Positions 782 through 34,902 of a DNA stretch of 39,371 bases are shown piece by piece. The translations under genes and the position numbers were made by a program. Position 1 is the stretch's first letter. The number at the start of each line of letters is the position of its first letter. Origin of the DNA: a virus; the IMG/VR virus record IMGVR_UViG_3300010392_000226, positions 1 to 39,371 of that record. One strand, written 5' to 3'. The notes under the pieces are model-generated. The model had not been told where the DNA came from, searched no databases, and worked only from the letters and a program-made list of their open reading frames with translations.

Positions 782-852
782 GGCTTATACTTTTAAGGCA
801 AGCTGAGAACGATAACCGATTACATGAATATTTATATGGAGATAAGGATTAA
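658..852 (+). CDS. Tail assembly chaperone, frameshift extension (gpT-like part)
   Basis: This is the -1 frame segment, read only after slippage near 655-661; the fused product would be about 234 residues (frame from 149, then this part). The encoded sequence (LDKSELYRSLYKERGFTER followed by a leucine- and arginine-rich helix) looks like genuine protein, more so than the alternative frame ending at 781. Its stop overlaps the tape measure ATG at 852, as in other G/GT-tape measure arrangements. An independent start at ATG 622 is possible, but I see no ribosome site for it. In lambda the T part bridges the tape measure and the tail tube protein; the same role is inferred here. Confidence 0.6.
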   Translation, partial: KHEISSKPNFPDLDKSELYRSLYKERGFTERTINQCSELRLRLILLRQAENDNRLHEYLYGDKD

Positions 853-3800
853 TGGCAACTATCAAAGAATATTCTATCAAGTTAGAGGCCGACTTATCCA
901 AAGCTCAGACGGCGTTAGGGGAATTCAAAGATAGTATACTAGGCACTTTTGCAGATATAAATAAAGCCGTTGCCGATCAATCTATAAGCCAAAGTATTAA
1001 TAAGGGTGTAGCCGAGTCGGTTAAAGAAATCGATAAGCTAGGCAAAGCCACAAAGAAAACAGCTAAGGAAATGGGCGGGGCGTTCGACGATACTAGCGAC
1101 GACTTTCGAAATTCTTTTGCCAAGTTAGAAGTCGAAAACGATAAGTTACGAAAATCCTTAGTAAGCGAAGCTGAGGCAACGGGAAAACAACGGGTTAAGG
1201 CTACTAAGAACCGTATAGACCAAGAAATAGCACTCGAAAAAGCTAAGCTTAACACCGAAAAGCAATTAGCTAACCAACGGCTTAAAAATGCCCAGGGTAA
1301 CGCGGCTAAACAATTACAAATACAAAAAAAGCTAGACGCCCAAATATTAGCTAGTGATAAAAGAATAGCCAAATTCCAAGATAAATTAGAAAAGACGGGT
1401 AAAACGACATTTCTAGCCGAAGCGGGCGAAAATTTCGCGACTATATCTCAATCGGTACAAAATTTAGACGTGGCGGGCGTGCTGGGCGGCTTTGGTAAAA
1501 CGGCGGGAATAGTAGGCGTAGGGATTGACGCGCTGGCAAACTGGAGCGGGGCGGCTTTAGACGCGGCCAAAAAAGCTGAAGGAATTAACAACCAGTTCGA
1601 AAAGCTAAACGCTACCTTAATACAACAAAACCCAAATATAGAAATAACAACGGCCCAATTTAATAACATAAAGGCCGAAATTCAGGCAATCGAAAGGCCC
1701 TTAAATGTAACGGCTGAGCAAGTAAATAATTTATCCATAGCGATAGCAAGTTTTGAAGCCCCTGATAATATAGGCGAAGCCACCGAAGCAATATTAAACT
1801 TATCAAAAGTTAGTGACGTTGAAACACCTTTAGACGATATAGCGGCGGGCGTAGGCCGTTTGTCTCAGGCTATGGGGGTAAGCGCTAAGGAAGCCGCCGA
1901 CTTAACCGCCGTTATGGCTACCCAATTAAAAGGCGTAGCGGCTGACCCATTAGGCGAAAGTATAACCGAGTTAGGTACTGTATTTAGTAAGGCTAACTTA
2001 ATAATGGGAGACTCTAAAAAAGCGGCTCAGGAAAGCGCGGCGGTCTTTACTCAATTAACTAAGTCGGGTTTTGAGGTAAGCGAAGCGACAAGCGCGGCTG
2101 AGGAAATATTCTTAAAGCTTAACGATGCAATGACCGACCCCGCTTTATTAAAAAGCATAGGGGACAAGTTACCCGAAGGGCTTAGCTTAATCGACGCGGG
2201 GCTAGAAAATGGCAACGTATCGGCTGTTAAGTTTATAGAAGCCATTCAAAGATCGGGCGGCGCGGGCAAAGCGTTAGCGGCTGAGCTTGGGGGCACAGGC
2301 GGCGAAGCATTACAATTTTTACAAGCTAATTTTGAGAAAACAGGCCAAAGCTCTAATGACTTTCTAAAGACTTTTGAAAACACTACCAACCAAGCGGCGG
2401 CCATAGCCGAAAGCTTAACCCCATCGGCTGAAAAGCAAAGCGCCCGACTTAATCAACTATTGGAAGACGTACAAATAAACGCGGGGCAAGCATTTACGGG
2501 TGTTTTAGGCGGCCTTAGGGATATAGGTATTGGGGCCTTAGAGTTTATTAACGATATATTCAAAAGTAGTGAGCAAAAATTCGCCGAAGCCGTTCAACGA
2601 ATGGAAGCCCTAGAAAGCATTGCGGCGGGCGTTGGTGGGGCTTTAGAGCAAGTTAGCAGCGTTATTGCGTCGGGCGTTATTAGTGGCGAAGGATTAGACG
2701 ACGCTTTAGAAAGTGTTAGGGCTAATATTGCAAACGTGGCCGAAGTATCGCCAGGAACCGCCGCCGAAATAGAGGCATTGTTAAATGCTGACGGCGAAGT
2801 TACTCAGGAACGATTAACAGAAATAAACGAACTATTATTAAGGGCTAACGAATCGGCACAAACCCTAGCCCTAGCCGAACAATTTGAGGCCGCCGACCAA
2901 GCTTTAGAGGCTTTAAGCGATAACGTAACCGATTTATTAAAAGATGTTGCCGGGGCAGAAATATTTGGCGCAGATGCCGGTGAAGCCATAGCAACAACAA
3001 AAGGGATTGCAGCAGATTTAAAAGAAGAAATCGCGAGTATCAATAAAGAATTAGAAAATGGACAAATTACGACTGAGAACCAAATTGAACTAACCCAAGA
3101 ACGATTAGAGTTAGAAAAGCAATTATTGATAACTGAAAGTAATATAGAAAAAGCCACCGAACAAATAGAAACAGTAATTAAAAGGCAAGTCGATCTAAAC
3201 AAAGAAAACATTAATGATGAGCTTACAAGGGCCGCCATTGTCGAACAAATAGCCGACGAATTTGGGGATAGTGAAGCGGCCTTAAATCAAATTAACTCAA
3301 TACTTGACGAACAAATAACAGCACTAAACGAAGCAGAAAGTGCCCAAAGTGACATTAAAACAGCAACCGAAGAAACCGCCGAAGCCCAGGCCGAAATATT
3401 ACCATTAAGCCAGGCGCAATTAGACTTATCAAAAGAAATAAACGAGTCATTAGATAAAGAAGTTGACGCAATCTTAGAGGCTGGGCAATCCCAAGAACAA
3501 CGAACCCAGGCCGAAATAGATACGCTTAAGGCTAAAAAGGCTAGTTTGCAATCTGTTTTAGTCGAGCTAGACGCGCAAATTGAATTAATAAAAGGGGCAA
3601 TAGAGGCCCAAGAAGCTAGCCAAATGGCCGAAAAGGATCGAATCCTTTTAGCTCAGCAACTAGCCGAAAAACAAGCCGAAATAAAAAGGATTATGTCGGG
3701 GCAACAAGACGAAGCCACCGCCGTAGACTTAGTACAAACGGGCGATTTAAGCGGGGCTTTAGCTCAATTAGAAGAAAGCCGCGACAAGGTAGCCAAAAGT

Positions 3801-6800
3801 ATAAGCTTAGTCGGGCGCGATATTGATAGCCTACAAAGCACGGGTAAGAAATTTCAGGAAGCCCAGGCCGATAGGGATAAGGCGGCCAGCGACGCCCAAA
3901 AGAAAAGGGAAAAGGATAAGGATAAGGCGGCTAAGGACGCACTTAAAAGGCAAAAGGATTTATTAAAGTTACAGGCTGAGCAAACGAAAAAACGGTTAGA
4001 AAAAGAGGAAGAAAATTTTAATCGTTTAGTCGATAACGCTAGAAAAACGCGCGACGCTGAGCGTAAAGAAATACAAGCCCGTAAAGCCCTAGAAAAAAGA
4101 TTAGCCGAGTTAGGCAAGTCGTTACGCGGGCAAGTGTTTAACATTGCTAAAAGCTCTTTGGAAGAAATCGAAAGGATAAGGGATAGTTTCGAAACCGAAA
4201 GCTTAAGAAAATCATTCGACGAAATTATAAAAAACAATAGAGAACAAAGCGAAGAATTCAAAGCCCAAAAACAGGCCGAAATAATAGAGCAGGAAAAGGC
4301 CGTTAAGCTAGCCCAGGCGGGGTTAACTGATTTAAGAGACCAATTAAGCCAAGAAAAAACATTAAGTCAGGGTGTTTTTAGGGAAATTAAAAACGTAGGC
4401 ATTGAATTAGCCGATTTAAGTAGGGACTTAGGGTTTTTAGGTTTTCTAAGAAACGACGTCGACGCTCTTTCGGGTTCTTTGAAGGACGCGAAAAAGGAAC
4501 TAGAAGGGCTTAATTTAAGCGCTCAGGCTAGGCAAATAGCGCCACAGGTAACAACCCAACCAGCAACAACGAAGCCGCAAGCCGTTTTTATTAATGCTGA
4601 TGGGATAGAGAAGTCAATAAATCAGCTATTAACCGAAGTCGAGGGCGGGAATTTTACCGACGCTTTTAAGTTTATAAAACAACAGGGCACAGTTCAATTA
4701 AGCGTATTACAGAAATTCAAAGACTTTGAATTTGTGGCTGAGCTTAAGGGTATAAAAGAAGCCCAGGCGGCCTTTGATGAGGCGGGGGCAAAAGAAGACA
4801 CCAACACGGCGGCACAATTGCTTAACGCCGAAAAGACCGCCCTTTTAAGCTCTTTTGTTAATCGCTTAAGTGGTGTGTTAGAAAAAACCGACATAGACGG
4901 GCTAAACGAACAAATAACAGCCCAAACCCAGGAAGTAAGCAAGCAAACGGCTGAGCTAGCCAAATTAAAAGGGCTTACCCCTGGCCTAGCTGGGGCCGTC
5001 GAGTCTCAAAAAGGTTTTGAGGAAGTCGCCCAACAATCCGAAAAGCTTAGAGATGCACTAATTGAAATAGACCAATTGGAATTAGATTTAATTAACGCGG
5101 TCGGCTTTGAGGAAAGCAAAGAAATATTAGACCAATTGGAAAATAAATTAAATGATATAAGTAAGGTTAGCTTAACCGAGTTAACAGGGCGGGCAACTGA
5201 GCTTAAAACCCAATTCGACGAAATAAATTTCGATACACTAATAAACAAGTCGGGGGAATTAACCGACGAGCAAAAAGAGGAAGTTAAACAAGCTAAGCGG
5301 CTAAAAGAAGAAATTCAATTATCAATAGACAAAGTAACCGAAATTACGGACAAAGTACAGGAATTACAAGACGAAACGGGGGCGCTTGACTTTGTGGACG
5401 AGCGTAAATTAATACAAGCCCGTAAAGAGTTAGAGCAAACAAGCGGCGCCTTATCCCTTATACAAAGCGCCGAAAATGAAATAAACCAAATAAGATCTAA
5501 AGGGCTTACCCCCTTACAGCAATTAAAAGAGACTGAGCAGGCAAACTTAAAATTAATTACCGAAAGGGTAACGGCTTTAGATAAACAAACGGCGGCGGGT
5601 CAAGAATTAACCGACGAACAAAAAAAACAACGGGCAGCGCTTATTGAAACGGTTAAATTATTGACCGAAATTTCGTTAATTAAAGGGCCTGAATTATTAG
5701 AACAACAAAAGGCCGAAAAAATACAAAAAGCCGTTGATGGAATATTAAACACATTTGAGCAAATAGAGGGGGCTATCGATCTAGGGATAGAAGCCATTGA
5801 AAATATTCCCGACGCTTTCGCCGAAAGCACTCAGGCGGGCGTTTTAGCCGTTGCCGATATAGCCCAAAAGGTAGGGACCGCTTTATTAGAGGGGCCGCCG
5901 CCGCTTAATCTTATCGGGGCTTTTATTGTAGGCGGGGCCATCATTGCCAAAGCCATAGCAAAAATAACAGCACTTTTCAAAGATAGAGAATTAACCCAGG
6001 AAGAACAAGCCCAAAGACGGGCCGACGCTGAGGAAAGGATTAATAAATTACATGAAACTAGAATTAGTTTAATGGATAGGGCCGCCGAGTTAGGCGATAA
6101 GTCATTAGACCAAGCTAGGGAAAGGCTTAAGGCTTTAAGGGCTATTAATGCAGAAAGGCAAAGGGAAAGCCTTTTCGCTCAGGAATTTATAGAATTAACT
6201 AACGACGAAATAGCCGCAAAAATAGAAAGCGAAGAGGCCCAAAGGGGTATATTGGAAGCTAGGGAGGCTGAAATAGAATTCGCTTTAGAGGGGTCTAGAA
6301 ATCAAAGGCAAGCATTATTAGCCCGCTTGGGTATAGACGACGGCGGTAACACTAAAAAGAAACTACGCGAAGTATTGGAGACACTAAACGCCGATTTAAT
6401 AAATATCAATGGTACAATAGAGGAAGGCAACGGCCAGCTAGAAAGGGCCGCCGAAATACTAAGCTTACAAAATGAAATTATCCAAGAGCAAATCGGATTA
6501 ATAGAATTTCGAATGGCTTTAGGGGCCGACGAGTTAACCGAGTTAGAAAAGCAAAGGGGTATTATATCGGAGCAACTAAGGGGCGAATTATCCCAGGCTT
6601 TAGGGGTTGCAGACCTATCCAATGTTTCCACTAAATTAATTAAGGCTACGTTTTCGGGTATTAGTCAAGAAATAACCAACGAAATGACCGACCTTTTAAG
6701 ACGGTTCGACGATTTAACGGCTGAGGAAATAGAAAGGCTAGGGATACTATTAAGTGAAGACATTGAAAACAGCCCCTTAAGCGAAGGGTTACAACAATTA

Positions 6801-7832
6801 TTTCTAGACTTGATAGCCATAGAAGACCAAACAGCAGAAACGACCGAAGCCCTTGAAAATCTTTTCGACCGTCAAAAAAGGCTTTTAGAGTTACAAAGGG
6901 ACTTAGACGAAATAACAGAAACTGAATTCGTCGAAATGTTTAACCAATTATTACAAGACCGTATAGACGTTTTACAAGCTGAGCTGGCCTTAATGGACGA
7001 AACAAACAGCACTTTAGCCGAAAGACTTGACAAAGAAATTGAAATAAAACAATTACAGCTAGAGCAAAAAAACTTAATCGACGAAATGAATAACAGCTTA
7101 GACAAAACCGACAGCCGATTAAGTGGGCTTATACGTAAGCATCAAGACCAAATAGCGGCTTTTAGAGAAGCTCAACAAACGGGCACTTTGACCCCTGAGC
7201 AACAACAGGAATTATTAAACACGCGGGAAGACATAGCTACCACAATGAGAGACGCTGGGGCAAGTGAGGAAGAAATTAACGAAGTTTTAAGCGCTTTACC
7301 TGAGTTTAGAAAAGGCGGCCCAACCCCCGACCGTGAAACTATAGTTAAAACGCACCCTGGGGAATTCATATTAAGAAAAGAAGCGGTTAACGCAATGGGG
7401 AAAGGCTTTTTATCAATGTTTAATAGCAATCCTTTTGCATTAAGCCCGCCTGTAAATACAAGCCCAACACCCCCACCGCCACCGCCAGGGGAAAAAGCGG
7501 CTAACCCTTTTGCATTATCGCCGCCAGTCAGTACTGGTACTGACTTTAATAACCCGCTAGCTTTAAGCCCGCCCGATACTTTCGGGGTTAATCCTTTAGC
7601 TATAACGGCCAGCGAAATAGCCCCGATTTTAGCTCAGGGCATTTTTAACAGAGATAGAGCAAATATTGAAAATAATAATACTAATAATATTAACTTAGAT
7701 ATGGTTAATAATATAACGACGTCGGATAACTCGGAAATAGCCCCGATTTTAGGGCGAGAATTCGAGAGTTTTATAATTAACATAGCTAATAAAAATATGG
7801 AAAGCGGGAAAATTAACAATGTTAGGGATTAA
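852..7832 (+). CDS. Tape measure protein
   Basis: At 2326 residues this is by far the largest gene, about 18% of the genome. It sets tail length and is threaded inside the tail tube before ejection with the DNA. Nearly the whole chain is charged, alanine-, glutamate- and glutamine-rich helix or coiled coil. One hydrophobic segment lies near residues 1680-1705 (LIGAFIVGGAIIAKAIAKI). Near the C-terminus is GGPTPDRETIVKTHPGEFIL followed by RKEAVNAMGKG, a module I recognise from many tape measure proteins. After it come a proline run and three units of the type NPFALSPP. I see no lysozyme or peptidase domain. An AAGGAT site lies just before the ATG. At about 0.15 nm per residue the predicted tail is about 350 nm. 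Confidence 0.93.
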   Translation: MATIKEYSIKLEADLSKAQTALGEFKDSILGTFADINKAVADQSISQSINKGVAESVKEIDKLGKATKKTAKEMGGAFDDTSDDFRNSFAKLEVENDKLRKSLVSEAEATGKQRVKATKNRIDQEIALEKAKLNTEKQLANQRLKNAQGNAAKQLQIQKKLDAQILASDKRIAKFQDKLEKTGKTTFLAEAGENFATISQSVQNLDVAGVLGGFGKTAGIVGVGIDALANWSGAALDAAKKAEGINNQFEKLNATLIQQNPNIEITTAQFNNIKAEIQAIERPLNVTAEQVNNLSIAIASFEAPDNIGEATEAILNLSKVSDVETPLDDIAAGVGRLSQAMGVSAKEAADLTAVMATQLKGVAADPLGESITELGTVFSKANLIMGDSKKAAQESAAVFTQLTKSGFEVSEATSAAEEIFLKLNDAMTDPALLKSIGDKLPEGLSLIDAGLENGNVSAVKFIEAIQRSGGAGKALAAELGGTGGEALQFLQANFEKTGQSSNDFLKTFENTTNQAAAIAESLTPSAEKQSARLNQLLEDVQINAGQAFTGVLGGLRDIGIGALEFINDIFKSSEQKFAEAVQRMEALESIAAGVGGALEQVSSVIASGVISGEGLDDALESVRANIANVAEVSPGTAAEIEALLNADGEVTQERLTEINELLLRANESAQTLALAEQFEAADQALEALSDNVTDLLKDVAGAEIFGADAGEAIATTKGIAADLKEEIASINKELENGQITTENQIELTQERLELEKQLLITESNIEKATEQIETVIKRQVDLNKENINDELTRAAIVEQIADEFGDSEAALNQINSILDEQITALNEAESAQSDIKTATEETAEAQAEILPLSQAQLDLSKEINESLDKEVDAILEAGQSQEQRTQAEIDTLKAKKASLQSVLVELDAQIELIKGAIEAQEASQMAEKDRILLAQQLAEKQAEIKRIMSGQQDEATAVDLVQTGDLSGALAQLEESRDKVAKSISLVGRDIDSLQSTGKKFQEAQADRDKAASDAQKKREKDKDKAAKDALKRQKDLLKLQAEQTKKRLEKEEENFNRLVDNARKTRDAERKEIQARKALEKRLAELGKSLRGQVFNIAKSSLEEIERIRDSFETESLRKSFDEIIKNNREQSEEFKAQKQAEIIEQEKAVKLAQAGLTDLRDQLSQEKTLSQGVFREIKNVGIELADLSRDLGFLGFLRNDVDALSGSLKDAKKELEGLNLSAQARQIAPQVTTQPATTKPQAVFINADGIEKSINQLLTEVEGGNFTDAFKFIKQQGTVQLSVLQKFKDFEFVAELKGIKEAQAAFDEAGAKEDTNTAAQLLNAEKTALLSSFVNRLSGVLEKTDIDGLNEQITAQTQEVSKQTAELAKLKGLTPGLAGAVESQKGFEEVAQQSEKLRDALIEIDQLELDLINAVGFEESKEILDQLENKLNDISKVSLTELTGRATELKTQFDEINFDTLINKSGELTDEQKEEVKQAKRLKEEIQLSIDKVTEITDKVQELQDETGALDFVDERKLIQARKELEQTSGALSLIQSAENEINQIRSKGLTPLQQLKETEQANLKLITERVTALDKQTAAGQELTDEQKKQRAALIETVKLLTEISLIKGPELLEQQKAEKIQKAVDGILNTFEQIEGAIDLGIEAIENIPDAFAESTQAGVLAVADIAQKVGTALLEGPPPLNLIGAFIVGGAIIAKAIAKITALFKDRELTQEEQAQRRADAEERINKLHETRISLMDRAAELGDKSLDQARERLKALRAINAERQRESLFAQEFIELTNDEIAAKIESEEAQRGILEAREAEIEFALEGSRNQRQALLARLGIDDGGNTKKKLREVLETLNADLININGTIEEGNGQLERAAEILSLQNEIIQEQIGLIEFRMALGADELTELEKQRGIISEQLRGELSQALGVADLSNVSTKLIKATFSGISQEITNEMTDLLRRFDDLTAEEIERLGILLSEDIENSPLSEGLQQLFLDLIAIEDQTAETTEALENLFDRQKRLLELQRDLDEITETEFVEMFNQLLQDRIDVLQAELALMDETNSTLAERLDKEIEIKQLQLEQKNLIDEMNNSLDKTDSRLSGLIRKHQDQIAAFREAQQTGTLTPEQQQELLNTREDIATTMRDAGASEEEINEVLSALPEFRKGGPTPDRETIVKTHPGEFILRKEAVNAMGKGFLSMFNSNPFALSPPVNTSPTPPPPPPGEKAANPFALSPPVSTGTDFNNPLALSPPDTFGVNPLAITASEIAPILAQGIFNRDRANIENNNTNNINLDMVNNITTSDNSEIAPILGREFESFIINIANKNMESGKINNVRD

Positions 7833-19380: not shown

Positions 19381-20076
19381 ATGAACATAATCAAAGCGGG
19401 TAAGCAAAATAATATAAATTTCGCCCACCCTATACAGCCAAACGACAAGGGGCAAAGCGTAATATTTATACACGGTTTCGCTAACGACCCCGACGACGCA
19501 ATAAAAGCGTATAGTTCGATGGCCCCTTACTACAAGACTAAAGACTACAACGTTTTCGGTTTTATATGGCCGTCTAATGGCTACGTAGGGGCGCGGTCTT
19601 ACCTTAGCGACTTTAGACGGGCGCGAAAGGCTAAGCACGCTTTGCGCTCAGCTATTGCGGCTATTAAGGGCGCTATGCCCGAAGGCCATAAGATTGTTAT
19701 TCAATGCCATTCAATGGGGTCGGTCGTGGCTATGGAAACTTTGGCAATAATTGAAAGCGGCTTAATACATAGAATTATTATACACGGCGGCGACGCTACG
19801 CGAAAGCTTTTCAAAAAGCGGCGTAAATATGGCAAGCACTTCAATAAAATTAACGGGGTGTTAAGCCTATATAGTGAGCACGATAGGGTATTAAGTACGG
19901 TTGCGAAACTGTTTAGGCCAGTTTGTAGGGTAGGGGAAAAGGAATTTCCTAAACGAGTGCCCGATGAATGGAAAAGTGTAAGCGCTGAAAAGGTAAGCGG
20001 TAACACAATAAGGCATAATAGTTATAAAAGCGCTCAGCTTGTTTTAACTTTTAGTTCTACCTGGGGTAAGAAGTAG
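19381..20076 (+). CDS. Alpha/beta hydrolase (esterase or lipase-like)
   Basis: This protein of 231 residues shows the alpha/beta hydrolase plan: VIFIHGFANDPDDA (oxyanion loop, residues 27-40), nucleophile elbow CHSMG with Ser111, an acid after strand 7 (LSLYSEHD, Asp168) and a late His212 (NTIRHNS). No signal peptide or membrane segment, so it probably acts in the cytoplasm unless released by lysis. The first gene after the tRNA-like sequence, it starts 14 bases downstream. LysB-type esterases of mycobacterial phages share the fold but sit in lysis modules; this one does not. Possible roles are cleavage of a host signal or surface ester, or a defence-related hydrolase; the substrate cannot be read from sequence. 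Confidence 0.75.
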   Translation: MNIIKAGKQNNINFAHPIQPNDKGQSVIFIHGFANDPDDAIKAYSSMAPYYKTKDYNVFGFIWPSNGYVGARSYLSDFRRARKAKHALRSAIAAIKGAMPEGHKIVIQCHSMGSVVAMETLAIIESGLIHRIIIHGGDATRKLFKKRRKYGKHFNKINGVLSLYSEHDRVLSTVAKLFRPVCRVGEKEFPKRVPDEWKSVSAEKVSGNTIRHNSYKSAQLVLTFSSTWGKK

Positions 20077-22016: not shown

Positions 22017-22490
22017 ATGGGTAAACATGTTAAGCCTACGGAATTCGGACAGTGCGTGTTAGATTTTCTAGATAACGCGGCTATGTCAAAAAAGACATTT
22101 AGCGAAGAGGTAGGCATATCAAAGGGTTATTTAGATAGGCTGTTAAGGGGTAATGCTAAGGTTGCCAGGCGCATAGTTAATGCGATGGCTAGCGTAATGG
22201 AATTAGGAGAAATAGAAAAGCTTAGTTTTATTAACTTATCCAAAGAGAACGAACCTGAAATAGATATTTATGAATATAGGATTGGTGAGCGCGTTTATAT
22301 TACAAGCTCTAATTATAGCTCAATGTCTTTAATTAGGTGCACAGTTGCCGACCGTGTTATTTTGGGTAATGTTCCCCATTACATACTTAATAACAACGAC
22401 ATAGGCGACAGATTTGCAATGCGAGCTAGTCAGGTTTTAGGCTTGAAAGCGGTTGTTATTAAGGCGTCTAGCTGGGCTCAAAATGATTGA
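22017..22490 (+). CDS. HTH protein with C-terminal beta domain
   Basis: This protein has 157 residues. Residues 20-60 form an HTH (SKKTFSEEVGISKGYLDRLL, then NAKVARRIVNAMASV), followed by a beta-rich part (IYEYRIGERVYITSSNYSS). It has a good AAAGGAT site. The split into DNA-binding and sensing or dimerising parts fits a transcription regulator, perhaps of the early-late switch; there is no operator evidence. It overlaps the start of the next gene by eight bases. Confidence 0.65.
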   Translation: MGKHVKPTEFGQCVLDFLDNAAMSKKTFSEEVGISKGYLDRLLRGNAKVARRIVNAMASVMELGEIEKLSFINLSKENEPEIDIYEYRIGERVYITSSNYSSMSLIRCTVADRVILGNVPHYILNNNDIGDRFAMRASQVLGLKAVVIKASSWAQND

Positions 22491-23179: not shown

Positions 23180-23431
23180 ATGGATTGGAAAAACTTATTC
23201 AAAAGTAAAAAAACAAAAATATTTATTATGGGTACTGGCTTCGCGGCTTTACTGGCCTTTGGTGCGCATGTTTTAGGGCTGAGCGAAGAATTAATTAAAA
23301 CTATCTTCGTAACGGTCGAGTCAGGCGCGGGCGCTACGATCTTAGGCTTTGGCGCTCAGGATATGGGAAAAGAAAAGGCCAGGATAGAAAGCAGTATTGA
23401 AGACGACATAGAGGCCGTTATTAATGATTAG
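23180..23431 (+). CDS. Putative holin
   Basis: This protein of 83 residues has a basic N-terminus (WKNLFKSKKTK), a first membrane segment at residues 14-34 (IFIMGTGFAALLAFGAHVLG), a second, more weakly hydrophobic one at 41-62 (IFVTVESGAGATILGFGAQ) and a charged C-terminus: the size and topology of small phage holins. It lies 450 bases before the endolysin in the same direction. AAGGAAG precedes the ATG. The XhlA-like protein at 12248 is the alternative or partner holin. Confidence 0.6.
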   Translation: MDWKNLFKSKKTKIFIMGTGFAALLAFGAHVLGLSEELIKTIFVTVESGAGATILGFGAQDMGKEKARIESSIEDDIEAVIND

Positions 23432-23846
23432 TTTACCTTACTTCCCGCCCGACAACGCTGTAAAAGTGCTTAAGCGGGTTATTAAACAGGTTAAAAGCCG
23501 CACGGGCTTAACTTACCCTGAAATGGCCGAAACCATAGGCGTAGGCATACAAACCATTTATGGTATAATTTGGGATAGGGTTAGGACTGTACATGACGCA
23601 ACCTGGGAAAAGTTTAAGGAAGGGTACGAAGGGATTATGTCAGCCCCGATTAATAAAATGCCTTCCAACCCTGGTAAAATACTAAGGAACCTACGCGAAG
23701 CGGCGGGTATAAGTCAAGACGGGCTAGCCGTATATAGTGGCGTTAGTAAGGTTCATATTTCTAGAGTCGAGCGCGGGTTAAATAATGTAAGCCCTAAGCT
23801 TTGGGCTAATTGGATGGAAATTTTAAGCGAGTATATAAATGAATAA
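23424..23846 (+). CDS. Tandem HTH protein
   Basis: This 140-residue protein appears to have two HTH units: residues 25-55 (TGLTYPEMAETIGVGIQTIY) and residues 85-135 (LRNLREAAGISQDGLAVYSG, then VSKVHISRVERGLNNVSPKL), the second a clear XRE/Cro-type domain. It overlaps the holin-like gene by eight bases and stops shortly before the endolysin, an odd place for a regulator. Two DNA-binding units in one chain suggest binding to long or paired sites. Role unknown; control of lysis or late genes is a guess. Confidence 0.7.
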   Translation: MISLPYFPPDNAVKVLKRVIKQVKSRTGLTYPEMAETIGVGIQTIYGIIWDRVRTVHDATWEKFKEGYEGIMSAPINKMPSNPGKILRNLREAAGISQDGLAVYSGVSKVHISRVERGLNNVSPKLWANWMEILSEYINE

Positions 23847-25457: not shown

Positions 25458-26159
25458 ATGGGAAGAAAAACCGAAAACAGCACAACGACGACGACGATAA
25501 CCGACCAAACTAACCTAGACCCTAAAAGGACTAATAATATAAGTCAGTTACCTGTAATATTGTATAATGAGGAAGGTTGCCCGATACACTCCCCAGGCTC
25601 AGGGGCGCCCGTTGCTGAATTCTTAAAAACGTCGGGCGCGTCTATTGAGCAAAATATAGTAGGCTCTTTGGGTACGCCCGTCGAATTCTTTTTAGAGCCT
25701 ATAAAAAAAGACACCGTAACAAAAGCCGACGACGCCATAAATGGCTCCGATATAATATTAGAAATAACATTGTTAACAATTGAATTAATAGATACCTCTA
25801 TGGGGTCGGCTGACTACGGCGGTATAGCTGGCGGCCTAGCTAATGGCGTGCGGTTGGAGATACGTAGCGGCGACTTAGCAACGGGTACGCTTTTATTTGA
25901 CATGTTAGACGGCCAGCCCGTCGGGCAAAATTTTGATTGGGGTTTTCACGCGGGTACTTTTCAGGTCATAGACCAGGGAAGCGGCGACGACGCTATTATA
26001 GTTAAAATGGCTTTTATGGATAAGCTAGGTAACCCGTTAAGGCTTAAGACTAACGGGTATAACGGAACCCCCGACCGTATAAGCATAGCAATTCAAGACG
26101 ATTTAACAGCCTTAACAAGGCAACGGGCCAAAATATCGGGCCATTGGTATTATGACTGA
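25458..26159 (+). CDS. Hypothetical, possible virion surface protein
   Basis: This 233-residue protein begins with a Thr-rich tail (MGRKTENSTTTTTITDQTN). Its body is beta-rich and acidic (DIILEITLLTIELIDT, GVRLEIRSGDLATGTLLFDM). There is no membrane segment and no enzyme motif. Composition fits a structural or decoration protein, yet it sits just upstream of the terminase and not with the head genes. A phage capsid fibre or head-surface protein is the best guess; I do not recognise the family. Confidence 0.5.
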   Translation: MGRKTENSTTTTTITDQTNLDPKRTNNISQLPVILYNEEGCPIHSPGSGAPVAEFLKTSGASIEQNIVGSLGTPVEFFLEPIKKDTVTKADDAINGSDIILEITLLTIELIDTSMGSADYGGIAGGLANGVRLEIRSGDLATGTLLFDMLDGQPVGQNFDWGFHAGTFQVIDQGSGDDAIIVKMAFMDKLGNPLRLKTNGYNGTPDRISIAIQDDLTALTRQRAKISGHWYYD

Positions 26160-26361
26160 TATGAAAAACGAAAGCAAAGAAAAAGAGACCATTTATAAAA
26201 AGCGACGTATCGAAAAGGGTTTAACCCAGGAAGAAGTTTGTCGCGCCGTTAATATGTCAAAGTCGGGCTATTGGAACATAGAAAAGGGATTAAGAAAACC
26301 CCAGGCTAGGCATAAACGGGCATTAAACCAATTTTTAGAAATTGAAGAAAAGGGTAATTAA
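26152..26361 (+). CDS. Small XRE-family HTH protein
   Basis: This 69-residue protein is one XRE/Cro-type domain: YKKRRIEKGLTQEEVCRAVN, then MSKSGYWNIEKGLRKPQARH. It overlaps the stop of the previous gene and the start of the small terminase. ATG 26161 is an alternative start. It could regulate the packaging operon. A DNA-recognition helper for the terminase is also possible given its place, but this is conjecture. Confidence 0.7.
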   Translation: MTDMKNESKEKETIYKKRRIEKGLTQEEVCRAVNMSKSGYWNIEKGLRKPQARHKRALNQFLEIEEKGN

Positions 26362-27053
26362 TGGCGGGCGGTCGTGTTAAGGGCAAAAGTCGAATAGAAC
26401 AAAGTTGGCAGGAACCGTTCATAGTAGCGGCTTTACTGGGTGGCAACTCACTTAAACAGATTTCCGATACTTACCAGGTACACCGCTCGACGGTCGATAA
26501 GTATAAAAAATCTGAGCGCTTCCAAAAAATGTCTAGGCTATGGTTAAAAAATGGCTTTCCTAAAAAGGTCGAAAAGAAAATAAAAGAACTATATCCAAAC
26601 TACGAAAAGGCTATAAGCGAGTTAAAAGCTAACACGATTAAAGCGGCTAACGGTGATTTGAGCTTTTCGGCTGAGTCAGGAAAGGGTAGCCGTAGTATAG
26701 CAATACCTAACCCAACCCCCGATAATGTAAGGATAAGGGCCTTACTTGACGAAGCAGAAAAGAAAGCCTTACACTTTTACGGGCGCGACGAAATACAGCC
26801 CGCCGTCGTGGCGCATAAAATGTTTTTAGACTCGGTAAAGGAATTAAGGGCCGTAGAGGATCGTATATTAGAAAGGCTAGGCACTCAGGAAGAGGAAAGG
26901 CTAGCATACATACAAGCCAAAAGGGAATATTATAAGGCCCAATTATTCGAGCATGGCGACGAAATAGAAATAGAAAAGGTAGTAAGTAACTTTGAACCGT
27001 CAATTATTCAACCCGACGAAGCTTTACCCCCAGCAGAAAATATTATTAGGTAG
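26361..27053 (+). CDS. Putative small terminase subunit
   Basis: This protein has 230 residues. An N-terminal HTH (WQEPFIVAALLGGNSLKQIS, then YQVHRSTVDKYKKSERFQ; residues 16-56) fits a DNA-recognition domain. The middle and C-terminal parts are helical (ALLDEAEKKALHFYG, LDSVKELRAVEDRILERLG) as in oligomerising TerS proteins. It lies directly upstream of the large terminase and overlaps it by 62 bases. In phages TerS binds the packaging start site and feeds DNA to TerL. Ends in TAG. The call rests mainly on position and architecture. Confidence 0.7.
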   Translation: MAGGRVKGKSRIEQSWQEPFIVAALLGGNSLKQISDTYQVHRSTVDKYKKSERFQKMSRLWLKNGFPKKVEKKIKELYPNYEKAISELKANTIKAANGDLSFSAESGKGSRSIAIPNPTPDNVRIRALLDEAEKKALHFYGRDEIQPAVVAHKMFLDSVKELRAVEDRILERLGTQEEERLAYIQAKREYYKAQLFEHGDEIEIEKVVSNFEPSIIQPDEALPPAENIIR

Positions 27054-28260
27054 CCCTGACAATAGCGTAATCGTAGCCAAAGGCGGCGCGGGTACTGCTA
27101 AAACAACGGGCGGGGTATTAAAGTTATACGAATATCTAAGCCGCTACCCTGGGGCTTATATTCTCGTTATAATGCAAACGCTTAACCAATTACGAATGGT
27201 ATTTAAGGAGACCTGGGAAAGCATAGCGCCCGAAAAACATTATAAATATAGTGATATGGGGAATACTATAACCCTTTACAACGGGGCTAAAATATCCCTA
27301 CAATATGGGGAATTACCAAGCGCGGTCGATAGGGTTAGGGGGGTTAACTTGTCGGGGTATTATATTATTCAGGCCGAAAGCTTAACGAATGAGAAGCTTA
27401 TTTATGAGTTAGACCAAAGGGTCAGAATTCAGGGGATACCCCATTTAAGGCTTATAGACTCAAACGGCGGGCACTTGCATAGGGTTTGTAGTCGTCGCTA
27501 TTCAAATTTCGATAGCGCTGAGTTTATAGCGACCGATATAAAGAAAACAGAAAGCGGCCCTTTAACAGTGTATCGGGGTAAGTGCGCATTTGGCAATTAT
27601 CTATATATTCATATCAAGACAACCCCCGAAACGTCGGTTTATACTAAAGAAGTCTTAGACGAAAATAAACGAACTATGCCCGAAGCTACTTATAAACGAA
27701 TGATTTTAGGGCTAGACACAGCCGACGAAGGGTTAGTATATGACGAGTTCGATCGCCACGTACACGTTAAAGAGTTTGAAATTAATGAAGGGTGGAAATT
27801 TTACAGGGGTATCGATTTTGGATATACTAACCCCTTTGTATGTCTTTGGATTGGCATTGACGCCGACGGTAATTACTTTGTATTTGATGAATGGTATATG
27901 TCTAAGCTTTTAGTTCCTGAGCACGTAACGGCTATTAAGGGGCGCTGGGATAACTTAGAATACCTTTGCACCTACGCCGATCCAAGCGGGGGCGCTATGT
28001 TAGGCCAACTTATGGACGACTTAGGCGGGAATATTGAAGGTGGTTATAATAATAGGCAATGGGGGCGGGAACGGGTTAAAATGAATTTCAAACAGGATAA
28101 GATTACCATTCACCCACGATGTGAAAATCTTATTTATGAATTACAGGTCAATGAGTGGAAGACATTAAAAAGCGGTAACGAAGTACCTGAGGATAGCCAA
28201 AAGGTTAACGACCACGCTTTAGACGCGCTACGCTATGTAATTGCTAGTTTGGAGATTTAA
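26992..28260 (+). CDS. Large terminase subunit
   Basis: This protein has 422 residues. ATPase domain: VIVAKGGAGTAKTT is the Walker A (Lys37 in GGAGTAKT); IIQAES follows in the place of Walker B/C. The C-terminal RNase H-like nuclease has GIDFGYTNPF (Asp275), CTYADPSGG (Asp330) and NDHALDALRY (Asp407, Asp411). It packages DNA into the prohead and cuts concatemers. The likely start is TTG 26992, since LFNPTKLYPQQKILL resembles the usual TerL beginning and an AAAAGG site lies upstream; no ATG precedes the ATPase motif. The 62-base overlap with TerS is long. Confidence 0.9.
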   Translation: MNRQLFNPTKLYPQQKILLGSPDNSVIVAKGGAGTAKTTGGVLKLYEYLSRYPGAYILVIMQTLNQLRMVFKETWESIAPEKHYKYSDMGNTITLYNGAKISLQYGELPSAVDRVRGVNLSGYYIIQAESLTNEKLIYELDQRVRIQGIPHLRLIDSNGGHLHRVCSRRYSNFDSAEFIATDIKKTESGPLTVYRGKCAFGNYLYIHIKTTPETSVYTKEVLDENKRTMPEATYKRMILGLDTADEGLVYDEFDRHVHVKEFEINEGWKFYRGIDFGYTNPFVCLWIGIDADGNYFVFDEWYMSKLLVPEHVTAIKGRWDNLEYLCTYADPSGGAMLGQLMDDLGGNIEGGYNNRQWGRERVKMNFKQDKITIHPRCENLIYELQVNEWKTLKSGNEVPEDSQKVNDHALDALRYVIASLEI

Positions 28261-28415: not shown

Positions 28416-28655
28416 TTAAACTTTTAGCTTACCCATTTCTAATTTAATTAAGCTAAAGAATTCATTGATATAATATATATCCCTTTCGTCGGGCTTATCG
28501 AATATCTTTCCGTTACCGTCAGCGACTTCGTAACTATACGCCCCGTTATTATCGACGGTCTTAACGATAACCCCCGCTTGTATAGTGCGGCGGTTAGCAT
28601 AGCCAGCCAATGGCTTAACTATTATTACTTTGTCGCTGACTTTGTATCTATTCAT
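28416..28655 (-). CDS. Small beta-barrel-like protein of the methyltransferase cassette
   Basis: This protein of 79 residues starts MNRYKVSDKVIIVKPLAGYA and continues with strands (AGVIVKTVDNNGAYSYEVAD), a KOW/SH3-like small barrel by appearance. Its ATG overlaps the stop of the methyltransferase on the minus strand, so both come from one transcript. It is the last gene of the only reverse cassette. It might help the methyltransferase or bind RNA/DNA; no family is recognised. Confidence 0.6.
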   Translation of the reverse strand: MNRYKVSDKVIIVKPLAGYANRRTIQAGVIVKTVDNNGAYSYEVADGNGKIFDKPDERDIYYINEFFSLIKLEMGKLKV

Positions 28656-29791
28656 TAAAATATCGTTTCCTGGCCATCGTCTAGGGCCTTAATTCTCTTT
28701 TCTGCTATTTCCATATAGTCGGGGCTTAGTTCAATGCCTACGAATTCCCGATCCAATTGAATAGCGGCCACGCCAGTACTACCAGACCCCGTAAAAGGAT
28801 CTAGTATTATATCACCTTTGCGGCTCCCTAATGTAATAAGGTATTGCATTAATTTAACAGGCTTCGCGGTTGGATGGAAGTTCCCCTTAGTAATACGCTT
28901 TTCGGTTACTTTGTTTTCACACTGGCAACGGTGGGGAATATCGCCGACTAACTTTTTTTTACAATTTGCGCATATATCGTCATACGTACGCGCCCCTGTA
29001 TCGTGTTGATTGCCTTCAAGGTCTTCGACCCCTTTATTTTTCTCAGCCTTAGCCGCCTTAGATACAATCATATAAGGAAAGGTGCTATTTTCTGGTTTAA
29101 TGTTTAATTCTTTATGCCATCGGTCAAGGTCGAAATATTTGGAAAAATCGTTATCCAAAACATTATCACTAACCAAAAGGTTAGCAGGGAAGCGGCCACC
29201 ATTAACGCCGGCTGATGTATTATTAACGTCACTTGCCATAAAACTTCCACCGCTTGTATTATTAAACCTATTAATATCGCCCTTGTCACTATCGCTTAAA
29301 TATGGCACCCTACAATTATCCAACCAAGTAACACCCTTCCCATTATCTAAACATTGATCGACAAATGTTTTTTTATCCAACGGTTTCATTACTACTATAA
29401 TTATTTCCGTTGCGGGTTTAGGTTGGAAGCCACCGTAAGCGCCGTTAAATTGTTCTAATTTTTTCCCTATATTGTGAGCCTTTGGGAAACCCGATGCATA
29501 AGCCCAATAAATAGAACTAAAACCGACGTTAAAGCCGCTATTCTCTAAATTGATAATCATACGGCTAAGCACGTCTTGACGCGGGGCCGACATAATAAAG
29601 GCGAAAGCCCCAGGCTTAAGAACCCTAAGACATTGTTTCCATATATCGGGGTTAGGTAGTGTTTTATCCCAGTCTTTACCCATGAAGGAATAGCCGTAAG
29701 GCGGGTCGGTTACAATACAATCTATAGAATTATCGCTTACCTTTTCCAGTTCTTTAAGCGAGTCGCCATTATAAAGGGTATAATTTTTCAA
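28655..29791 (-). CDS. DNA methyltransferase, beta class (N6-adenine or N4-cytosine)
   Basis: This protein has 378 residues. The catalytic motif IV DPPY (29-32) precedes the AdoMet motif I FTGSG (333-337), the order of beta-class enzymes. The long middle part (about 170-330) is the target-recognition region and holds a zinc-knuckle-like set Cys274, Cys277, Cys289, Cys291. HPTAKPVKLMQYLI before motif I is typical. No restriction gene is adjacent, so it is a solitary methyltransferase that may protect phage DNA from host restriction. It lies between TerL and portal on the opposite strand. The target sequence cannot be deduced. Confidence 0.9.
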   Translation of the reverse strand: MKNYTLYNGDSLKELEKVSDNSIDCIVTDPPYGYSFMGKDWDKTLPNPDIWKQCLRVLKPGAFAFIMSAPRQDVLSRMIINLENSGFNVGFSSIYWAYASGFPKAHNIGKKLEQFNGAYGGFQPKPATEIIIVVMKPLDKKTFVDQCLDNGKGVTWLDNCRVPYLSDSDKGDINRFNNTSGGSFMASDVNNTSAGVNGGRFPANLLVSDNVLDNDFSKYFDLDRWHKELNIKPENSTFPYMIVSKAAKAEKNKGVEDLEGNQHDTGARTYDDICANCKKKLVGDIPHRCQCENKVTEKRITKGNFHPTAKPVKLMQYLITLGSRKGDIILDPFTGSGSTGVAAIQLDREFVGIELSPDYMEIAEKRIKALDDGQETIF

Positions 29792-30204
29792 TTAATAACC
29801 AAGCCTTTCTTTGGCAATCCCAAAGCAATAAGCCATAAATGGGGGGCTATGTCTTTACTAGTTTCCCGCTTTTCCATAAATTGATTATTAACCATTACGC
29901 CATCGCCAGGCTCTAAGTTATCCCAAATGTAAACCATATCCCTAACCCATTCACTAGCCGCGTTTATTCCAAATTCCCTGATAATTAAATCGTTTTGATT
30001 AAGGTATTTAATTAGGTTGGGTATAACTTTAGAGTGTAAGTCTAAACTATTGCCAGGTACGGGGCTAAGGGTTTTAGTTTCCCATTTTAGATCTAACTTA
30101 CCTTTATTTTTTAAGGCTATCCAGTCTATCCGATAGGGGAAAGGGATTTTATCTAGCTCACTATGAATGTTAATAGTTACGTAATCGCTTGCAATGATTT
30201 TCAT
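29788..30204 (-). CDS. Hypothetical protein, first gene of the reverse cassette
   Basis: This protein has 138 residues from the ATG at 30204 (minus strand), chosen because AAGGGTGG lies directly upstream; the frame opens a little earlier at 30228. Mixed alpha/beta (MKIIASDYVTINIHSELDKI, FGINAASEWVRDMVYIWDN). The end overlaps the methyltransferase start by four bases, so the two are coupled. No family is recognised. It begins only 60 bases from the divergent HTH-portal gene, so both share the control region 30205-30264. Confidence 0.65.
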   Translation of the reverse strand: MKIIASDYVTINIHSELDKIPFPYRIDWIALKNKGKLDLKWETKTLSPVPGNSLDLHSKVIPNLIKYLNQNDLIIREFGINAASEWVRDMVYIWDNLEPGDGVMVNNQFMEKRETSKDIAPHLWLIALGLPKKGLVIN

Positions 30205-30214
30205 AAACCACCCT

Positions 30215-30264
30215 TTGAAAAATATCATATATTATATTATAATATAACAGAGGCATAATATAAC
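30215..30264 (+). promoter_or_regulatory. Promoter and operator-like palindrome of the HTH-portal gene
   Basis: TTGAAA (30215-30220), 17 bases, TATAAT (30238-30243): a near-consensus sigma70 promoter pointing to the portal gene. The 16-base perfect palindrome TTATATTATAATATAA (30232-30247) covers the -10 box. One arm with flank, ATAATATAAC, occurs at 30239-30248 and again at 30255-30264, ending directly before the ATG. AGAGG (30249-30253) is the ribosome site. A repressor at the palindrome would block transcription and one at the second half-site would lie at the translation start. Confidence 0.7.
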
Positions 30265-31725
30265 ATGAATATAAAACACGACAGAAAAAAGGCGGGGCTT
30301 TCTCAGAAGGAATTAAGCAAGCTTACAGGCTTAAAGCAATCTTATATATCAATACTAGAAAATGGAAAGGTTACCCCGTCGGCGGGTACGATAAACAAAA
30401 TAGAAACAGCCATAAATGAACGGTCATTAAAATCGAGTCATACCCAGCCGTTAATTACCCCCGAAACAATCCCAGCCGATAAAAATGACGTAATCCATAA
30501 TGAAATAGCACGGTCGGGCGTTAGTACCCCAGGCTTTGCGGTCGACGCGTCGGGCTTTGGCTTGCTTAGCGCTAACGGGTATACTACGCGGGAATATGAA
30601 AGGATAAGGCGATTTACCCCAAAGATTAAAAACGGGCTTAGGATATTAACCGACGCTACTTTTTGGGTCGACGCCGTTATTAGGCCCGACGACGATAACG
30701 ATTATATTAATAACCCTGAGTATGAAGAAAGGGATAAAACACTTACCAAAGTTATAAGCCAAATGTTAAAGACATTCGAGCACGATTACTTACCATTCGA
30801 CCAAGCGGTTAAAAGCTGGTTCCAATATGCGATTACTTGCGGCTATTCAGTGGCCGAAAAGGTTTGGGAAAATGATAACGGACAATGGCGCTTAACAGCC
30901 CTTAAGGTAAAAAAGCCTTGGGACTTCCACCCCTGGGTAGACGAATGGGGTAACCTAGAGGCTTTATTCCATTACCCGACGGGGCAATTTTTACACCCTG
31001 AGCGGTTTTTATTTGCGCCCTGGCCTTTTTTGCATGGCGAAAACTATCTAGGGGTAAGCGAAATAGAGGCCGTACGCCAGGAAGTCGACTTATTCAATAC
31101 TAATAAGGAAGCCCGTAACCGATTCGTACACCGTCAAACCATAGCCCCGTTAGTGCATGAGAGAACCGCCGACGCATCGGGCGACGACGACATTATAGAG
31201 CAAATGGAAAGCGAAAGCGTTTTACACTTGCCCGCCTCACGTAACCCCCAAACCCAGGAAATGCAAAGCAAACATAAGTTTAGCTTAGTAGACGGTCGGG
31301 CTAGTTCGTCACTACTTAGCCAAATGGATAAGGCTATAGAGGAAGACGGCAAAGAAATAACGCGCACGTTGGGGATTCCCGATACTTTAGGCGTAACCGA
31401 TACGCGGGCGGGGTCCTTTGCTTTGGGTAAAGTGCAATTCGATAGCTTTACCGCGCGGCCTGAAAATGCCCAGGCTTGGGTTAGTGCGCATATTCAAAGG
31501 CAAGTTATTAGGGATATTGTAAAATATAATTATCCTAGTTGGCTGGCCGACCCTAATTATTTTATACCACAATATAAATTTGAATTACTCGACGAAGACT
31601 TCCAAAATAAAGTTAGCCAAAGGGTAAGGGAAGAATTCAAAGCGGGCTTAATCGACATAGACGAAGCGCGAAGCGAATTAGGCAAAGTAAGCAAGGAAAC
31701 CGTAGACGAAACCGACGCGGTTTAG
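30265..31725 (+). CDS. Portal protein with N-terminal XRE-type HTH domain
   Basis: One uninterrupted frame of 486 residues. Residues 1-55 form a complete XRE/Cro-type domain: HDRKKAGLSQKELSKLTGLK, then QSYISILENGKVTPSAGTIN. A linker (55-100) follows. The rest (about 105-475) fits the Mu gp29/DUF935 portal type: PFDQAVKSWFQYAITCGYS, VAEKVWE, PERFLFAPWPFLHGENYLG, EARNRFVHRQTIAPLV, TLGVTDTRAGSFALGKVQFD. Portals form the 12-fold ring at one head vertex through which DNA passes. No in-frame start with a ribosome site lies between the two parts; the first later methionine is deep in the portal. A separate promoter and palindrome precede the gene. Portals with DNA-binding domains are not known to me. 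Ends in TAG, with the frame open beyond. Confidence 0.85.
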   Translation: MNIKHDRKKAGLSQKELSKLTGLKQSYISILENGKVTPSAGTINKIETAINERSLKSSHTQPLITPETIPADKNDVIHNEIARSGVSTPGFAVDASGFGLLSANGYTTREYERIRRFTPKIKNGLRILTDATFWVDAVIRPDDDNDYINNPEYEERDKTLTKVISQMLKTFEHDYLPFDQAVKSWFQYAITCGYSVAEKVWENDNGQWRLTALKVKKPWDFHPWVDEWGNLEALFHYPTGQFLHPERFLFAPWPFLHGENYLGVSEIEAVRQEVDLFNTNKEARNRFVHRQTIAPLVHERTADASGDDDIIEQMESESVLHLPASRNPQTQEMQSKHKFSLVDGRASSSLLSQMDKAIEEDGKEITRTLGIPDTLGVTDTRAGSFALGKVQFDSFTARPENAQAWVSAHIQRQVIRDIVKYNYPSWLADPNYFIPQYKFELLDEDFQNKVSQRVREEFKAGLIDIDEARSELGKVSKETVDETDAV

Positions 31726-32127
31726 TCGGGAAAGGGTAGGCGTATAAATGAAGACAGAAAACTAGCCATATATAAAAGGCTATTTCATGAGAACATTAAA
31801 CGACGGGGCAAGCGCGACGAAATAAAGGTAAGTATAACCCTTAACCAATATATAACCCTAATATCTAAGCCGTGTTATTATTGCGGCTTAGAATATAGCT
31901 TAACAGCCCTAGACGTTGTTTACCGATACAAAGGCAAAGGGCCGACGTATGTAACCGATACACATATTAATCACAATGGGATAGACCGAAAGGAAGCTAG
32001 AAAGGGCTACGAGTTCGACAATTGCGCCCCGTGCTGTAAAGATTGCAATATGGCAAAGAACACAAAAACACCCGCCGAGTATATAAAATTCATTCATAGG
32101 GTTTATAAATACAATTTCACCAAGTAA
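31726..32127 (+). CDS. HNH endonuclease in frame behind the portal's amber stop, no standard start codon
   Basis: The frame that follows TAG 31723-31725 stays open for 133 codons to TAA 32125-32127. It encodes KPCYYCGLEYSL, then THINHNGIDRKEARKGYEFD and NCAPCCKDCNMAKN, the zinc cysteines and His-Asn-His core of free-standing phage HNH endonucleases, with a typical helical lead-in (YKRLFHENIKRRGKRDEI). There is no ATG, GTG or TTG before the motif. An ATG at 31748 has a ribosome site (AAAGGG) but is one frame off and stops after five codons. Options: amber readthrough from the portal, a rare start, a frameshift, or a start lost by mutation. It may be a homing nuclease or, as in HK97-like phages, a packaging helper. 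Confidence 0.65.
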   Translation, partial: SGKGRRINEDRKLAIYKRLFHENIKRRGKRDEIKVSITLNQYITLISKPCYYCGLEYSLTALDVVYRYKGKGPTYVTDTHINHNGIDRKEARKGYEFDNCAPCCKDCNMAKNTKTPAEYIKFIHRVYKYNFTK

Positions 32128-33963: not shown

Positions 33964-34902
33964 ATGGCGATAAATTTAACTAACCAACAAATAAACGAAT
34001 TATACCTTAAGGTTAGCGGCGCGATTGACTACAAATATAACGAAATATTTGACATGGCTAACGCGACTAATAATCTTAGAGATATGACAATGGCCGAAAC
34101 GACTGACCAAGATAAGGTAGACTTGCCTTTTATGGAAAGCGTCGTAGGGCTGAGCGAAGGGGCTAAACACAACCCTATTAAAATACGTACACTTTTAGGC
34201 GGTACTCATGAGATTCCCGTAAAGAAATGGGAAGACGGCTTCGAAGTATCCAAGCACGATGTAAAAGCCGACCGTTTGGGGCAAATTATGGCGCGGGCTA
34301 TGGACTTAGGAAGTGGGGCCGCGTTATTGCAAAGGGATTTAATACTCGAATCTTTAAGAAGTGGGGATACGTCTAGCTTTTTAATGTATGACGGCGAGAA
34401 TCTTTTCGCTAACGCACACCCAAAAGGCGGTACTACGTTCGACAACTTACAAGCGGGCGTATTAAACGCAACTAACTTGCAAGCTATGCGCGTTATTATG
34501 ATGCGTTTTCCATCGGACGCGGGCGCGGCTAGACCGTTGAATATTATGCCTAATAAGCTAATTGTGCCCCCTGACTTGGAAAAAACCGCTTTGGAATTTG
34601 TTAATAATACTTATGTCCCTGGCGGCTCAGGTGAGGCCGATAACTTCTTTAAGGGAATTATGGAAGTGATCGTAGCGCCTGAATTAACCGACGTAGACGA
34701 CTGGTATTTAGTATTCAGTAATGCTAACGTTAAGCCTTATATTCATTTATCAAAGGAAGGGTTTAGCCCTTATTCAATTGATATTGAAGGCGACGTAGCG
34801 GGTACTGACGCGTACAAACATGAAAAATTAATCTTTACGGGTTCAACGTATGAAAACGTATACCCAACAAGGCCCGAATTTTTCTTAAAAGTAGCTAACT
34901 AA
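33964..34902 (+). CDS. Major capsid protein (Mu gpT-like)
   Basis: This protein has 312 residues. The pattern MTMAETTDQDKVDLPFMESV near the start, KKWEDGFEVSKHDVKADRLG, and YDGENLFANAHPKGGTTFDN (about 135-155) is characteristic of Mu-type major head subunits with the HK97 fold. It ends with strand-rich VYPTRPEFFLKVAN. It should form the icosahedral shell with the protein encoded at 33529. A strong AGGAG site precedes the ATG, as expected for the most abundant protein. A stem-loop follows the stop. Confidence 0.88.
   Translation: MAINLTNQQINELYLKVSGAIDYKYNEIFDMANATNNLRDMTMAETTDQDKVDLPFMESVVGLSEGAKHNPIKIRTLLGGTHEIPVKKWEDGFEVSKHDVKADRLGQIMARAMDLGSGAALLQRDLILESLRSGDTSSFLMYDGENLFANAHPKGGTTFDNLQAGVLNATNLQAMRVIMMRFPSDAGAARPLNIMPNKLIVPPDLEKTALEFVNNTYVPGGSGEADNFFKGIMEVIVAPELTDVDDWYLVFSNANVKPYIHLSKEGFSPYSIDIEGDVAGTDAYKHEKLIFTGSTYENVYPTRPEFFLKVAN

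Follow-up and report, generated by a model that had tools for sequence, protein, structure and literature searches.

The head of a tailed phage contains twelve portal subunits and hundreds of capsid subunits, and the control of this balance is only partly understood. Portals of the Mu gp29/DUF935 type, such as those of Mu, JBD30 and Andromeda-like Bacillus phages, have the same core profile and fold as the portal described here and the same gene position between terL and the head genes. The 98 distinct relatives compared differ from it in lacking a helix-turn-helix (HTH) domain, and the divergent promoter is a further difference of the portal reported below.

The XRE controller proteins C.BclI and C.AhdI belong to the same HTH superfamily as the domain found here (weak PDB matches), and a methyltransferase gene is adjacent in either case. 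Controller-type autoregulation has a layout in which a regulator gene borders a methyltransferase cassette, points away from it and has a palindrome across the promoter. In the methyltransferase M.SsoII, the N-terminal 71 residues, on a flexible linker, bind a 15-bp intergenic quasipalindrome and downregulate the enzyme's own gene (PMC3978073). For the phi29 connector gp10, it was described that the N-terminal helix of one monomer could lie near the pRNA ring, subject to the position of the connector (PMC6542822). This helix makes no close direct contact in that structure and, unlike the HTH described here, is not a folded domain of the sequence-specific DNA-binding type.

The locus analysed here lies in a virus record of 39,371 nucleotides (IMG/VR IMGVR_UViG_3300010392_000226, positions 1 to 39,371), referred to as the window. 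At 30265..31725 on the plus strand, a gene of 486 codons was found that encodes an HTH domain followed by a portal. The product resembles M.SsoII (PMC3978073) in that a protein whose main function is not regulatory carries an HTH at its N-terminus, connected through a flexible linker, and has an intergenic palindrome nearby. The HTH of M.SsoII is, however, carried by the methyltransferase itself, whereas here it is carried by the portal, the methyltransferase is a divergent neighbour and binding is only predicted. C proteins are free small proteins, in contrast to the HTH described here, with which a portal frame of 486 aa begins; since it has no separate product, it was not classed as a C protein. 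No cognate restriction enzyme was identified, the only possible candidate being an HNH/endonuclease VII frame behind the portal that lacks a standard start.

The fusion gene and its two domains

The fusion frame begins with ATG and ends with TAG, without any internal stop. The original prediction of an HTH joined in one frame to a Mu gp29/DUF935-type portal was confirmed by profile matches for both domains and, regarding the portal fold, by AlphaFold2 and Foldseek. The Cro/C1 (XRE) domain occupies residues 1-55 (30265..30429, plus strand). HTH_3 (PF01381) matched residues 3-51 (30271-30417) with E 9.9e-12 and 45.2 bits (cut-off 23), covering nearly the full profile; the complete domain predicted for residues 1-55 was thereby recovered, with its end refined to about residue 51-55. 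When this piece was searched separately, the E value for HTH_3 was 2.8e-13. PHROGs assigned transcriptional regulators to the N-terminal part of the protein and portal proteins to the remainder, and the nearest phage relatives of the HTH were transcriptional regulators and repressors. It scores highest among the four HTH_3 matches of the record, so it does not have the look of a decaying domain.

Other HTH proteins are encoded upstream, namely a second small XRE protein of 69 aa at 26152-26361 (plus strand), whose stop codon overlaps the start of a small-terminase candidate, and two further ones at 22017-22490 and 23424-23846. Judged by eye alone, the portal HTH is unlikely to have arisen through duplication of one of the other HTH genes in this phage.

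The linker, at about residues 56-105 (30430..30579, plus strand), is of low predicted order. The AlphaFold2 pLDDT was below 50 at residues 47-79 and 85-97, and order was low overall from about residue 47 to 97.

The portal core extends over about residues 106-472 (30580..31680, plus strand). Portal_Mu (PF06074) matched residues 149-472 with E 6e-17 and 62.4 bits, the curated cut-off being 23.9, and in a search of the whole genome the fusion gene was the sole match to this family in the record (60 bits). Two portal families, phrog_113 and phrog_9232, were also matched. Structure prediction, which had been proposed as a check, was carried out with 29 related portals in the input alignment. It served its purpose for the portal core, which was modelled with confidence and retrieved the solved portals of P74-26, G20c, JBD30 and Mu with Foldseek (E down to 2.4e-11). 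The HTH region was poorly modelled, also in a single-sequence prediction; in the AlphaFold2 model this is attributed to the aligned portals, which have no counterpart there. The HTH fold is consequently assigned from sequence profiles alone, and these are strong. The gene order also fits a portal of the Mu type, with the large terminase gene upstream (26992..28260, plus strand; phrog_5653, E 1.1e-29) and a gpT-type capsid gene downstream (33964-34902). The protein is a variant of the Mu-type portal and not a new kind of protein.

Translation of the fusion and its rarity among portals

The start codon at 30265 is preceded by the ribosome-binding site AGAGG (30249..30253, plus strand). The anti-SD energy at this start was -5.8, close to that of 38 other genes of this phage, whose median was -6.1. 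Behind the HTH, no in-frame ATG occurs before residue 167, where the energy was -0.7, and the one in-frame TTG, at residue 100, has a weak ribosome site (-2.5). As had been predicted, the scan revealed no in-frame ATG, GTG or TTG with a ribosome site behind the HTH. A separate internal portal start was rejected on the basis of these weak or late candidates, and a separate portal product is therefore unsupported.

These observations bear on the possibility that HTH and portal belong to two distinct genes in the natural population, merged in this record by faulty assembly or sequencing or by the recent loss of a stop codon. The fusion is present in one metagenomic record, with no second copy found in the phage collection or in the IMG/VR scans, and the irregular frame behind the portal, lacking a standard start and with its ATG at 31748 out of frame, indicates that frame faults or decay are possible. 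Against this, no stop interrupts the frame and each of its two domains is intact. ATGs in other frames around the junction are followed by stops after a few codons, and a separated portal would be left in this frame without a usable start. An artefact or private mutation was considered improbable.

The irregular frame encodes an HNH/endonuclease VII protein (31726-32127, plus strand; phrog_1035, E 1.5e-17). It sits in the frame of the portal, directly 3' of the portal TAG, and no ATG, GTG or TTG was found near its 5' end. The ATG at 31748 has a good ribosome site and lies in another frame, which is closed by a stop five codons on. The arrangement could be due to read-through, to a rare start codon, to decay or to a fault in the sequence. 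Read-through of the TAG was considered and no sign of a recoded stop was seen: no tRNA genes were found in the window and TAG terminates 8 of the 49 called genes, which leaves a recoded stop without support.

In order to place the fusion among its relatives, 98 distinct related portals were compared (77 in one set and 21 more from genome searches). None of them gave an HTH family match (Pfam) in its N-terminus; the portal of the window alone did so. Identity to the Andromeda-like and other Mu-type portals was about 20-27% at best, and the N-termini of the relatives are not conserved. The genome searches with PF06074 covered two phyla, with 392 and 111 genomes, and the additional portals that they yielded had no HTH. 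A literature search for portals with a helix-turn-helix or XRE domain returned no description, so the statement that no portal with such a domain was known holds within the collections searched, from which near relatives of the phage may be deliberately missing. IMG/VR was scanned with peptide patterns taken from the capsid, from the whole portal and from its conserved block, and no close relatives were detected. With tblastn, the full fusion protein had no close relative in the phage collection, and among plasmids it matched only ordinary HTH regulators. When alignments of the portal and of the capsid or a TerL motif were used for scanning, distant relatives only were obtained, and the prokaryote-genome scan gave four distant portals. 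The fusion is known from one metagenomic contig without close relatives, and its interest is limited accordingly.

Distant portals were also seen in long frames of 719-831 aa (L024:3670-6162, L044:1346-3481, L165:4915-7365 and L086:2472-4655). The C-terminal part of these frames resembles, by eye, a MuF-type head morphogenesis domain, suggesting that fusions at the opposite end of the portal occur in this family.

The methyltransferase cassette and the divergent gap

Directly upstream of the fusion gene, and divergent from it, lie the only three minus-strand genes among the 49 called, all of them between terL and the portal. The first is ORF146, with no assigned function (29788..30204; likely start 30204, longest frame to 30228), for which no match was found in Pfam, PHROGs or the phage collection. 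It is followed by a DNA methyltransferase of the N6_N4_Mtase family (28655..29791; PF01555, E 3.6e-33; phrog_67) and by ORF79, an ORF call with no assigned function (28416..28655). In the closest annotated relatives the portal follows terL directly, with nothing between them; a minus-strand trio at this spot therefore looks like an inserted cassette. The GC content was 38% for the HTH, 36-41% for the cassette and 46% for the portal core, the HTH stretch of 165 bp being short for an argument from composition. A gut phage with a Mu-type portal carries a methyltransferase frame on the same strand between terminase and portal (L006:3305-4063), which suggests that methyltransferases may enter at this position repeatedly.

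The gap between the likely start of ORF146 and the fusion gene is 60 bp long. It contains a sigma-70-like promoter reading into the fusion gene, TTGAAA-17-TATAAT (30215..30243, plus strand), which agrees with 11 of 12 consensus bases and is one of two of such quality in the window; the consensus is that of sigma-70 and may not be the host's. The -10 box lies inside a perfect 16-bp palindrome, TTATATTATAATATAA (30232..30247), the longest perfect palindrome of the window and a candidate operator. An 11-bp direct repeat, ATAATATAACA, spans 30239..30265, with copies at 30239-30249 and 30255-30265 that flank the ribosome site. The second copy ends at the start codon and could possibly be a further half-site. 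When the gap was subjected to 10,000 dinucleotide shuffles, 1.3% of the shuffled sequences had a palindrome as long as this one, 1.6% had a direct repeat of 10 or more, 0.66% had a promoter as good and none had all three. The test was chosen only once the region had been inspected, the three features overlap one another and the AT content of the gap is very high, so these counts are supporting and not decisive. No relative shows conservation of the operator.

The cassette could account for the origin of the HTH without any function, if its arrival joined the regulator frame to the portal. The domain would then be a tolerated N-terminal tail, weakly active or with no present role, which persists since the promoter and ribosome site now precede it. 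Portals tolerate varied N-termini, and a single genome shows the fusion. On the other hand, a domain that is intact and scores well above the cut-off is not what would be expected of such a tail, nor is a palindrome overlying the -10 box. A passive fusion was thus regarded as rather unlikely, although better placed than an artefact.

The position of the palindrome is also relevant to the earlier suggestion that the HTH binds a packaging start. A portal HTH, or those of the 12-mer, might recognise a site in the genome and help the terminase to start or hold packaging; the portal is the place where packaging happens, and a flexible linker could bring all twelve HTHs within reach of DNA close to the motor. 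This suggestion was weakened by two results. In front of terL there is already a candidate for the small terminase, which has a weak HTH match of its own (26361..27053, plus strand; HTH_23 E 0.028, phrog_2538 E 0.063), and the best candidate site lies on the promoter, no further copy of the palindrome above chance being found in the window. Related portals, moreover, do without an HTH. A role in packaging was accordingly judged the least probable of the explanations, well down in the range of the improbable.

The portal as a candidate autorepressor

The explanation we favour, with slightly less than even confidence, is that the fusion is real and that a captured XRE regulator would make the portal an autorepressor of its own promoter. 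It is preferred because the domains are intact in one frame with no separate portal start, and because the regulator-like HTH, the divergent cassette, the promoter with its palindrome and the precedent of M.SsoII point the same way. Ranked by probability, it is followed by the passive fusion, the artefact or private mutation and the packaging role.

In the proposed sequence of events, a methyltransferase cassette (ORF79, methyltransferase and ORF146) with a divergent XRE regulator would have entered between terL and the portal gene in the reverse orientation, and the frame of the regulator would have become joined to that of the portal. The resulting protein would be a Mu-type portal to which a repressor-type HTH is tethered by a flexible stretch of about 50 residues. 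Free portal subunits might then bind pairwise to the palindrome in the gap, over the -10 box of their own promoter, and repress the portal gene and perhaps the methyltransferase operon too. Once built into the ring of the procapsid, subunits would cease to act as repressors, and the supply of portal (12 copies per head) would in this way follow capsid assembly. The specific form of this model, in which unassembled portal acts as a transcription factor on the portal promoter, and perhaps on the methyltransferase operon, until relieved by uptake into the procapsid, is a more doubtful proposal than autorepression in general. We infer the cassette origin of the HTH, its DNA binding, the autorepression and the relief on assembly from the arrangement of the locus.

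The original prediction had left open whether the HTH was a captured regulator or bound the portal's own promoter. Both ideas gained from the divergent promoter with its palindrome and from the adjoining methyltransferase cassette. The interpretation is narrowed from an unspecified HTH target to a specific candidate operator.

If the model is true, an operator-bearing promoter together with a portal carrying a repressor domain would offer a direct, testable way of balancing portal against capsid. A structural virion protein would double as a gene regulator, and the locus would be an example of a cargo cassette fused to an essential head gene. On our best reading of this one environmental sequence, a part of the virion may be able to switch off its own gene, for which no earlier description was found.

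Two further genes of the window were observed. A 2326-aa frame at 852-7832 (plus strand), without match in Pfam or PHROGs, probably encodes the tape measure protein of this 39-kb genome. Among the early genes, a DUF900-type alpha/beta hydrolase is encoded at 19381-20076 on the plus strand (PF05990, E 2.9e-17).
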